This document shows, piece after piece, positions 4,924-15,760 of a stretch of 39,452 bases of DNA. The stretch is from Candidatus Brocadia sapporoensis. Its GTDB lineage: Bacteria; Planctomycetota; Brocadiia; Brocadiales; Brocadiaceae. Positions within the stretch are counted from its first letter, which is position 1. Every line of letters starts with the position of its first letter. Location: positions 1-39,452 of the forward strand of contig NZ_MJUW02000113.1 of the NCBI RefSeq assembly GCF_001753675.2, written 5' to 3'. Below the pieces are notes generated by a model. The model saw only the letters and a program-made list of their open reading frames with translations, did no database searches and was not told the DNA's origin. Position numbers and translations under genes: made by a program.

Positions 4924-5634
4924 TTATATTATAATGTCTTTGTCGACTTTATCACGAAAAATTTTCAGCAAGACCTCTTTGTTAAATTTGGTTACATCCA
5001 GTCCTTTATCAAAGGGAATCACGCCTAACAGGGGAAGGCCGGTAAGCCGCTTTATTTCATCAATATTTGTCCTCATGACGACGTCATTGCCGTTTTCCGT
5101 GGACTCATTCATAACAATCCCCTTGACGGCGAGTCCGTGTTCGCGTGCATACGATACGGTTAATAGGGTGTGATTTATTGTGCCAAGGTTAGGCCGGCAT
5201 ACGACAATGACCGGCAACTCCATCTCATAGGCCAAATCCACAACAAAGTAGTATTCATCAATCGGGACAAGCAACCCGCCAATGCCCTCGATAATAAGAT
5301 ACTCATGCCTTTCACATAGAGAGTCATAGGCCATGCGTATTTTTTCCAAGTCTATCTTTGTATCACTCAGCCGCGCTGCTATCGTTGGAGCGAGGGGTTG
5401 TTCAAGACTGACGGGGTTGATGAGTTCATATTCGTCATCTACTTCCGCAGAATTTTTTAAAAAGATGGCGTCATCGGATATAAGGGTGTTATTTACCCGT
5501 TTACAGCCTGTAGCGATTGGTTTCATAACCCCAACGTCAAGCCCCTTGTTTCTGTAAAGAGCTGCCAAACCGCCGGCAACCATGGTCTTCCCTACCTGCG
5601 TATCCGTACCGGTAATAAAATATCCTTTTCCCAT
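4924..5634 (-). CDS. bioD: Dethiobiotin synthetase
   Basis: BioD catalyses the ATP-dependent ureido-ring closure from 7,8-diaminononanoate plus CO2 to dethiobiotin, the penultimate step of biotin synthesis in the cytoplasm. The 236-residue length is typical (220-240). The P-loop variant GTDTQVGKT lies at residues 9-17, followed by MKPIATGC (substrate loop, about 37-44) and EGIGGLLVPID (about 115-125), both diagnostic for the family. The ATG at 5634 is preceded by AAGGAGAAAGCGTT, a strong ribosome site. No other bio genes are in the window. It is separated from the HAO-like gene upstream by about 230 bases containing a strong palindrome, so the two are probably not tightly co-transcribed. Confidence is high from the conserved motifs. 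Confidence 0.92.
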   Translation of the reverse strand: MGKGYFITGTDTQVGKTMVAGGLAALYRNKGLDVGVMKPIATGCKRVNNTLISDDAIFLKNSAEVDDEYELINPVSLEQPLAPTIAARLSDTKIDLEKIRMAYDSLCERHEYLIIEGIGGLLVPIDEYYFVVDLAYEMELPVIVVCRPNLGTINHTLLTVSYAREHGLAVKGIVMNESTENGNDVVMRTNIDEIKRLTGLPLLGVIPFDKGLDVTKFNKEVLLKIFRDKVDKDIII

Positions 5635-5704: not shown

Positions 5705-5737
5705 AACTCTGTCAGGGTTTCAAACCCTGACAGAGTT
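5705..5737. repeat. Perfect 16-bp palindrome, GGGTTTCAAACCC core
   Basis: Arms AACTCTGTCAGGGTTT (5705-5720) and its exact reverse complement (5722-5737) surround a single C. It lies 3' of the HAO-like gene. The core resembles the palindromes at 25908-25930 and 29923-29949. It could act as a stabilising or terminating hairpin for the cytochrome mRNA, but there is no T-run on the minus strand. Confidence 0.7.
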
Positions 5738-5862: not shown

Positions 5863-7491
5863 TTATTGATCGTAACGTTCATGGTACATTTCTCTCAATG
5901 CCTGTGCTTCTTCGGGAGAAAGGCCCTTCATCCATCGGTGCTCCTCTTGCGCAAGCAGCGCTTCAATTTTGTTTTCATATTTTAACTGCATCTCCGGACT
6001 TTTCTGTGCCGCCGCCTTGATTACGGCGGGTAAAAATTTCAGATAGAAATGCTTTGCTACCTTATACATCCCCTGCCAGTGGGTAAAGTCAGGACCCATC
6101 ATGCTTGCACCATGCCGCGCCCGGCGTCCCTCATGGTGCCACAGTTCCCAGAATATCCATTGCACCTCATGTTCAAAGGGAGCTTGCGGATTCAGCACCC
6201 CATCAGTGATTAATTCATTCATGAAAGATTGAGCAGGTCCGGCAAATTTTTCATTATAGAGCAACACTAAATCATCAAATTGCTTGTAAAAATTATCGAT
6301 ATAGGCGTCGTTATGGCAGTTTCTGCAAGCGCCTTTCATCTCTTCCCTGCGTTCTTGCCATGTTACAATTTTTATCACACGTCTCGGTACCGTCGTATTC
6401 ACCAGTTTTTCATCTTTGTATACCTTCTCAATGGTCTGGACTTCATCGCCAACCTTTGGAAGCAGCTTCTTTTCCGGGTAATCTTCCTTATATCCATCCT
6501 CATAAATTATCAAGTTGATCTTTGTGCTCACCACGGGGCGAAGTGTCCAGCTAATTCGATTCCCTGTCTCATGGTTGTTTCCTATGTACACACCATTGAA
6601 AGTCATATAACCACCAACGTGGCAGGTAATACACGTAGGAGCCGCAGAGTAATCCCTTCCAAGAATCCAGTCGCCTTCTTTATCAAGCGCCATGTGATCC
6701 CGGTTCGCATAAAACGCAATGCCGTGCTTTGATTCGTTATACACCTCAATGTGCGGATGATCAGGGCCCATGTGACATTTACCGCAATTTTCCGGTGAGC
6801 GGGAAAGTTTTGACTCAAAGGCATGGCGGGAATGGCAGGCGTGACAGGACCCTTTTGACCCATCGGGATTGAGACGACCCATGCCGCTATTTGGCCATGT
6901 GTCAGGGTCCAGGACGGGTTTTCCGTCCATACCGTTTTTCATTATCTTTCCCTGAGTATCCCGTTTAAATTTAATCATGCTGCCATGGCACTGCCAGCAG
7001 CCGTTTGTGGCATCCGCAAAATTATTCGGGAGACCGGCCACCTTTTCCGCCAGCACGTTATCCAGGCTTGCCAGAATTTCACCCGCCTTTGCGTGACGGC
7101 TTTTTGAAAACCCTTCGTACTCCCGCTGATGGCAACGTGCGCAGTCCTTTGGAGTGACCAGGGTGGCTATCAAAACGTCTTCGTGCTGCCAGGCATCAAC
7201 CTCTCCCGGATTAGCCTTGTGGCAATTCACACAACCGACACCGTGCTGTGCATGCCGCGACCGTTCCCACTCCAGAACGAGGGCAGGAGCGTAGTTCCGG
7301 TGGCAACTGACACACTGCTTATTTTCGACGGTGATTACCGGGGGCAGTTCTTCCTTTTTTTTCCGTTGCTTCGAAAGCGCTGCGTTCTTCTGCCGAAATC
7401 CCTTCTGTTCCGCACAACCGGTAACCATAACCAACATACCTAGCATCGCAAACAAACAGACACTTCGTATCGTATTCTGTGGTTGAATCAT
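5863..7491 (-). CDS. Octaheme HAO-like cytochrome c lipoprotein
   Basis: A secreted multiheme protein of the hydroxylamine oxidoreductase family. Starting at the ATG at 7491 (GGGAGAGACAG just upstream), it is 542 residues; the frame is open to 7563 but the longer N-terminus would precede the signal peptide. Residues 10-26 form a lipoprotein signal ending VTGC26. Eight CXXCH motifs start at C60, C87, C117, C165, C216, C236, C287 and C389, the HAO spacing, with CGKCHMGPDHP and an Asp265-His266 pair resembling the HAO active-site Asp-His. The C-terminal helical region has WHHEGRRARHG and MGPDFTHWQG. Phe469 occupies what I believe is the position of the heme-4 crosslinking Tyr of oxidative HAOs and hydrazine dehydrogenase. 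A missing Tyr is associated with reductive members acting on nitrite or NO. Substrate and compartment (anammoxosome or periplasm) are inferred. Confidence 0.9.
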   Translation of the reverse strand: MIQPQNTIRSVCLFAMLGMLVMVTGCAEQKGFRQKNAALSKQRKKKEELPPVITVENKQCVSCHRNYAPALVLEWERSRHAQHGVGCVNCHKANPGEVDAWQHEDVLIATLVTPKDCARCHQREYEGFSKSRHAKAGEILASLDNVLAEKVAGLPNNFADATNGCWQCHGSMIKFKRDTQGKIMKNGMDGKPVLDPDTWPNSGMGRLNPDGSKGSCHACHSRHAFESKLSRSPENCGKCHMGPDHPHIEVYNESKHGIAFYANRDHMALDKEGDWILGRDYSAAPTCITCHVGGYMTFNGVYIGNNHETGNRISWTLRPVVSTKINLIIYEDGYKEDYPEKKLLPKVGDEVQTIEKVYKDEKLVNTTVPRRVIKIVTWQERREEMKGACRNCHNDAYIDNFYKQFDDLVLLYNEKFAGPAQSFMNELITDGVLNPQAPFEHEVQWIFWELWHHEGRRARHGASMMGPDFTHWQGMYKVAKHFYLKFLPAVIKAAAQKSPEMQLKYENKIEALLAQEEHRWMKGLSPEEAQALREMYHERYDQ

Positions 7492-7649
7492 ATCTGTCTC
7501 TCCCGGGTTACTCTTTTTTATGCAAGCGGTCATTTTCGACGCTGAGAAATATTCTAAACGCATCTCTGTCTTCTTTTAATTCAGAGGATGAGGCAAGGAA
7601 GATTTTGAAAGATTTCATAATGATGAAGTTTCCCTTTTTTTCAATTCTC

Positions 7650-15124: not shown

Positions 15125-15214
15125 GGAGGGATGGCCGAGTGGACTATGGCGGCAGTCTTGAAAACTGCTGGAGGCGAAAGCCTCCCGTGGGTTCGAATCC
15201 TACTCCCTCCGCCA
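15125..15214 (+). tRNA. tRNA-Ser (UGA)
   Basis: The acceptor stem GGAGGGA (15125-15131) pairs with TCCCTCC (15204-15210), followed by G and an encoded CCA. The anticodon stem GCAGT / ACTGC encloses loop CTTGAAA with anticodon TGA. A long variable arm (GGAGGCGAAAGCCTCC) confirms the class II serine type, and the T-loop reads GTTCGAATC. It begins about 28 bases after the BFN stop. Confidence 0.96.
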
Positions 15215-15667: not shown

Positions 15668-15760
15668 GGAGAGGTGGCTGAGCGGCTGAAAGCGACGGTT
15701 TGCTAAACCGTTGTAGAGACAAAATCTCTACCCCGGGTTCGAATCCCGGCCTCTCCGCCA
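15668..15760 (+). tRNA. tRNA-Ser (GCU)
   Basis: The acceptor GGAGAGG (15668-15674) pairs with CCTCTCC (15750-15756), then G and an encoded CCA. The anticodon stem ACGGT / ACCGT encloses TTGCTAA with anticodon GCT. The long variable arm (GTAGAGACAAAATCTCTAC) marks class II tRNA-Ser. It ends about 126 bases before recG. Confidence 0.96.

Follow-up and report, generated by a model that had tools for sequence, protein, structure and literature searches.

The question raised by this locus is whether an octaheme HAO-like cytochrome c, encoded in a 39,452-nt stretch of Candidatus Brocadia sapporoensis DNA (the window, contig C53 of a 2.93-Mb genome that is 99.1% complete), functions in the oxidative or in the reductive direction. 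Brocadia-type anammox bacteria are often without NirS and NirK, and their NO-forming nitrite reductase is an open question; in this genome we found no NirK, a single partial match to cytochrome d1 (30.7 bits), and a HAOr-type protein of its own (L003). The original prediction described a lipid-anchored paralog that lacks redox neighbours, carries Phe469 at the position of the cross-linking Tyr, and may reduce nitrite or NO. As we describe below, the protein is probably an octaheme reductase that belongs to the IhOCC/HAO5-like branch and is tethered to a membrane. An orphan, anchored, Tyr-less octaheme would be a further candidate for the NO-forming nitrite reductase, and relatives of this protein link the OCC to quinol modules.

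The gene and the elements that flank it are located as follows.

5863 to 7491, minus strand: octaheme HAO-like cytochrome c gene (OCC gene), 542 amino acids plus stop; open frame with eight CXXCH motifs and PF13447 above cut-off
7500 to 7504, minus strand: GGGAG, a likely ribosome-binding site that precedes the ATG at 7491 by 8 nt, from the sequence
4924 to 5634, minus strand: bioD-like gene directly downstream of the OCC gene, an order common to relatives (L038, L055)

The predicted coordinates were right, the frame being read from 7491 to 5863 on the minus strand; the plus strand of the same stretch is full of stops. The start is the ATG at 7491, which yields 542 amino acids; a longer start, the ATG at 7563, is less likely, as alignment with relatives favours 7491. 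Neither a stop nor a frameshift interrupts the gene, and all of the heme motifs are retained. Its dN/dS is approximately 0.08 (0.077) at a dS above 1.6, which is near saturation and behind which a recent relaxation of selection could be hidden. Purifying selection has acted on the gene, and because the full-length frame is kept across relatives at this dN/dS, the frame is not a chance one. Its G+C content is 48.7%, as compared with 43.6% for the window and 41-46% for the relatives measured. The window also contains 2 tRNA-Ser genes on the plus strand, at 15125-15214 and 15668-15760, with anticodons TGA and GCT. A perfect palindrome with 16-bp arms, AACTCTGTCAGGGTTT(C)AAACCCTGACAGAGTT, lies between the OCC gene and bioD at window positions 5705-5737; with up to 2 mismatches allowed, five sites in the genome match it, and a reversed control gave zero.

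The eight CXXCH motifs begin at residues 60, 87, 117, 165, 216, 236, 287 and 389, are invariant in 31 relatives, and follow the order that is characteristic of the HAO/octaheme cytochrome c superfamily. PF13447 scored 77.3 bits against a cut-off of 21.9. The nearest solved structure by sequence was 4qo5, with E values of 1.7e-43 for the single sequence and 6e-64 for the family profile; the structure library labels this entry a hypothetical multiheme protein, and we take it to be IhOCC, the octaheme cytochrome of Ignicoccus hospitalis. A predicted model of the OCC protein (mean pLDDT 71.5, pTM 0.63, weak at residues 461-470) again matched 4qo5 best in a fold search (Z 14.2 over 390 residues), with HAO, HOX, HAOr and HDH behind it at Z 10-11; hits to proteins without heme were weak (Z below 8) and were left out of consideration. 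A further superfamily feature is the distal pair at heme 4, which in HAO flanks the substrate.

6754 to 6765, minus strand: distal heme-4 residues Pro243-Asp244-His245-Pro246, equivalent by alignment to Asp267/His268 of N. europaea HAO

Asp244 and His245 were invariant in the 31 relatives. With IhOCC as the nearest solved structure and a long insert separating heme 7 from heme 8, the protein has the features of the IhOCC-like branch. Sequence and fold put it in the HAO superfamily, most likely within the Ignicoccus/HAO5-like branch already described, the HAO5A/HAO5B label being compared by published description only. The branch matches the published HAO5 type, predicted to be reductive, which lies outside the main anammox HAO clade. 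With the HDH equivalog model NF052343, whose cut-off is 900, the OCC protein scored 68.7 bits. Elsewhere in the genome, the end of the HDH model matched only C-terminal scraps (G000:C89:22078-22155 and G000:C28:3-83), one of them at a contig end, and near-identical HDH copies of this genome were probably collapsed in assembly. Relatives at E<=1e-60 were found in 26 of the 62 genomes of the order, and others were present in assemblies of Zixibacteria, Binatia, Ignavibacteria, Verrucomicrobia, Spirochaetes and Acidobacteria.

The diagnostic residue for the direction of catalysis is the cross-linking Tyr, which in N. europaea HAO is Tyr467 of VNPGGWTYTEGW (numbering from alignment positions). The relevant segment of the window protein is as follows.

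6064 to 6138, minus strand: C-terminal motif, residues 452-476, HHEGRRARHGASMMGPDFTHWQGMY, near-invariant in the family
6085 to 6087 (codon 6087 to 6085), minus strand: Phe469, in MGPDFTHWQG, a position that is Tyr in 35 of 38 family members
6079 to 6081, minus strand: His471, the residue that best matches the cross-linking Tyr in the multi-family alignment

Phe469 was present as predicted, and its alignment with the cross-linking Tyr was probably a choice of the wrong residue. When 19 proteins representing several OCC groups were aligned over their last third, the Tyr column (WTY, FTY, ATY or QTY) fell on His471 with all three MAFFT strategies, Phe469 shared its column with Trp465 of N. europaea HAO, and Thr470 aligned with the Thr that precedes the Tyr. 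Profile-profile comparison of the family with HOX alone placed Phe469 opposite the Tyr, whereas the route from the family through the L006 group to HOX placed the Tyr on His471; the HOX-only register was set aside, as it conflicts with both this route and the multi-family alignment. HMM alignment to PDB chains covered the motif for 4qo5 only, that to N. europaea HAO stopping short of it. A third register, Trp472, follows from the helix starts in two predicted models and from the epsilon-Hao rule, given in passages of PMC8940962, of a Trp that a Met precedes by eight residues. The helix starts are of low confidence (the mean pLDDT of the poor HOX model was 54.9), and the rule, which Met464 and Trp472 obey, was applied as worded in the paper and does not imply membership of epsilon-Hao. 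The phylogeny published in 2025 places His at the key site of reductive HAOs, according to passages of PMC12758564, so that the literature is consistent with the His471 register (PMC12758564) or with the Trp472 register (PMC8940962), as far as these passages go.

By sequence alignment, then, His471 appears to be the best equivalent of the cross-linking Tyr. In none of the three registers (Phe469, His471 or Trp472) did we find the Tyr that typifies oxidative HAO, HOX and HDH, and alignment with HAO-type proteins, as the original prediction had proposed, put a conserved Tyr nowhere at the heme-4 site; the assignment to a reductive type without a cross-link therefore stands in any register. The proposed structural model returned an HAO-type fold, and left the Tyr-site register (Trp472) at low confidence. 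More generally, a diagnostic Tyr is easily misplaced by two or three residues in pairwise alignment.

The L006 group, a different octaheme group (L006 and L089-L115) with the motif NPNYT[H/N/Y]L, includes a copy of this genome with its own lipobox, LASC. Its key column varies within the order among His, Asn and Tyr. We infer that the group is HAO6, for which passages of PMC12758564 report the gain of a Tyr in some Brocadiaceae; the variation fits that report and could track switching between reductive and oxidative function.

What Phe469 signifies is a separate matter. Among 38 distinct C termini, residue 469 was Tyr in 35, Trp in one (L033) and Phe in two, the window protein and L010; in the tree, these two form a sister pair (support 90/64), and a single Tyr-to-Phe change is thus the simplest reading. 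The window copy has in addition altered 2 other near-invariant residues of the motif, the changes Y469F, H473Q and E477K being found together and the latter two being confined to it. In total, it carries 8 changes at positions that are at least 93% conserved in the others, as compared with 0-5 in relatives of like divergence, and its end branch measures 0.25 versus 0.10 for its sister. On account of the three motif changes, its activity may differ from that of the family. The gene was correctly called a paralog: a second copy in the genome (L002/L133), on contig C120, is 65% identical and has Tyr at 469. The corresponding paralog of Brocadia carolinensis is split in two frames (L053 7941-9558, which is L025), by a frameshift or an assembly error. 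An improbable idea is that the near-invariant Tyr469 of most members makes contact with heme 4 of the adjacent subunit, or is even bonded to it, and so provides a second route to a cross-linked or gated P460-like centre, of which the window protein and its sister would have lost only the hydroxyl. If this were true, C53 with Phe and C120 with Tyr would be a natural knock-out pair; such a pair of paralogs within one genome in any case allows a direct test of the role of residue 469.

We then considered where the protein resides and what could feed it.

7414 to 7491, minus strand: signal peptide with lipobox VTGC, lipidation Cys26 at 7416 to 7414; from the sequence, Cys conserved in the clade

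The predicted lipobox is indeed present: VTGC26 comes after a hydrophobic stretch and conforms to the lipoprotein pattern [LVI][ASTVI][GAS]C, and the OCC protein is probably lipid-anchored. Its Cys is common to L009-L015 and L028, that is, to the window clade and some other lines (L011, L012, L013, L014 and L028). Paralogs of the L002 type have an ordinary signal peptide instead, and an N-terminal membrane helix replaces the lipobox in L030, L031, L043, L054 and L056; with a lipobox in some members and a membrane helix in Rieske/cytochrome b-linked relatives, membrane attachment recurs in different forms. L028 itself (1225-2238) is a short relative with a lipobox, the C-terminal motif and a single CXXCH; hemes 1-7 are absent, and it is a deletion product or an assembly artefact.

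Inspection of translations gave the gene order thiC, bioD, OCC, HD-domain gene, cysS and gltX at the window locus, with no redox neighbour among the genes adjacent to the OCC gene. The claim of redox isolation thus held at this locus and did not extend to relatives elsewhere, which carry Rieske/cytochrome b or NrfCD modules. Rieske and cytochrome b genes lie immediately upstream of the OCC gene in L043, L054, L056, L125 and L126, the hosts being Ignavibacteria, Binatia, Planctomycetota and Brocadiales, and more distant OCC genes follow a tetraheme c, an NrfC-like iron-sulphur protein and NrfD (L128, L129 and L130); in the loci scanned with Pfam, L043 and L129, the Rieske, cytochrome b, Fer4 and NrfD domains were confirmed. 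This repeated tie of the family to quinol-oxidising modules is the chief evidence on function and supports a quinol-fed reduction. The order bioA-OCC-bioD, in whole or in part, recurs in L037, L038, L041 and L055. Three of nine bioD loci of congeners hold remnants of a window-type gene: 23 C-terminal residues (83%) between bioA and bioD in L144, a fragment of the heme-4 region in L148, and in L149 part of the C terminus, interrupted by a stop. Because the remnants lie beside bioD, the gene was ancestral at this site and was lost in sister species, by either independent losses or decay.

Eight hemes, a lipobox, an HAO-type fold, Asp244/His245, the absence of the Tyr, and purifying selection are the observed basis for the following scheme, in which we consider it reasonably likely from the sequence that the protein works reductively. 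The mature protein would be a trimer, fastened by three lipid anchors to the positive side of a membrane. Electrons would pass from the quinol pool into the heme chain, directly or via a soluble cytochrome, and a small nitrogen oxide would be reduced at a heme 4 that is not cross-linked. The likeliest reactions would be nitrite to NO, or nitrite, NO or hydroxylamine further towards ammonium, and we make no choice between them. In relatives the electron source would be encoded next door; in anammox bacteria the OCC gene would be an orphan beside bioA/bioD, with an unlinked donor. Ancestral reconstruction in passages of PMC12758564 assigns such Tyr-less/His HAOs as reductive, and HAOr, also without the Tyr, is described in passages of PMC12485887 as reducing nitrite to NO. 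The predicted reductive type therefore remains likely by the absence of a Tyr from the heme-4 site, and not by the equivalence of Phe469 with that Tyr. Against a reductase, the operon partners are in relatives and not at the window locus, their quinol module could in principle run in reverse, and the register of the Tyr site would seem to rest on alignment, not on a structure.

The same chemistry could serve protection and not energy conservation. We regard such a detoxifying scavenger of NO or hydroxylamine as unlikely: the paralog L133 lies in a set of AKR, DUF488, OCC, hemerythrin-like, DsrE-like, CLC (chloride-channel-like) and NDH2-like genes, with similar sets in several anammox genomes, and the window gene appears dispensable in view of its remnants in three congeners, but the gene set belongs to the paralog, and in relatives the Rieske/cytochrome b and NrfCD neighbours point to respiration. 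Some octahemes may act as electron conduits, and the orphan gene and altered C-terminal residues would suit an electron-transfer cytochrome without catalysis of its own; near-invariance of both the distal substrate residues and the C-terminal motif across the family makes this improbable.

An oxidative hydroxylamine- or hydrazine-type enzyme, in which another residue takes the place of the cross-linking Tyr, would account for the conserved Asp/His pair and, in most family members, would have a Tyr available only two positions away from the key column. The window copy has Phe there, however, with a Tyr in none of the registers, and in view also of the low HDH score this is a highly improbable reading. 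To lineage-specific decay after duplication, with the gene on its way to loss, we give very little credence: the losses in congeners, the 8 changes at conserved positions and the long end branch are what it would predict, but the frame is unbroken, every heme motif is kept and dN/dS is low, within the limit set by its dS. The membrane-tethered reductase is thus the reading that we retain.

The protein resembles N. europaea HAO (4fas, 1fgj), HOX and HDH in its fold, its eight hemes and its distal Asp/His pair, and differs from them in the Tyr of their TY motifs. HAOr (kustc0458 with kustc0457; PDB 6h5l) is similarly an octaheme without the cross-linking Tyr, for which nitrite reduction to NO was measured, according to passages of PMC12485887; however, the HAOr-type L003 of this genome has Trp in the key column where the OCC protein has His, and HAOr has an adjacent diheme partner gene where the OCC gene has bioD and the HD-domain gene. 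With the kuste4574 type, the HAO-like subunit of the Rieske/cytochrome b complex R/b-3, it shares the idea of an octaheme reductase fed by Rieske/cytochrome b, as outlined in passages of PMC12954380, but kuste4574 is a close homolog of kustc0458 (passages of PMC12485887) and belongs to a different branch.

The HAO5A/HAO5B lineages of PMC12758564 are, in the passages available, likewise outside the main anammox HAO clade, with HAO5A clustering with Ignicoccus and with His at the key site of reductive HAOs; those passages report HAO5A to be absent from Scalindua, whereas we found the OCC family in a Scalindua genome (L051). Both the lineages of HAO5A type close to Ignicoccus and the view that Tyr-less HAOs are reductive are thus already published there. 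The conserved lipobox and lipid anchor, the Rieske/cytochrome b and NrfCD linkage, the congener remnants and the Tyr469/Phe469 pair were not seen stated in the literature passages found, and a text search on 'IhOCC' returned no paper clearly about that protein.

IhOCC (4qo5) differs from the window protein in being archaeal and only ~25% identical, in having PDV where the latter has PDH, and in having Trp in the Phe469 column and Thr in the His471 column. It is nevertheless the best match by both sequence and fold, hemes 7 and 8 are separated by a similarly long insert, and its aligned motif, DWTTF, is also without a Tyr.
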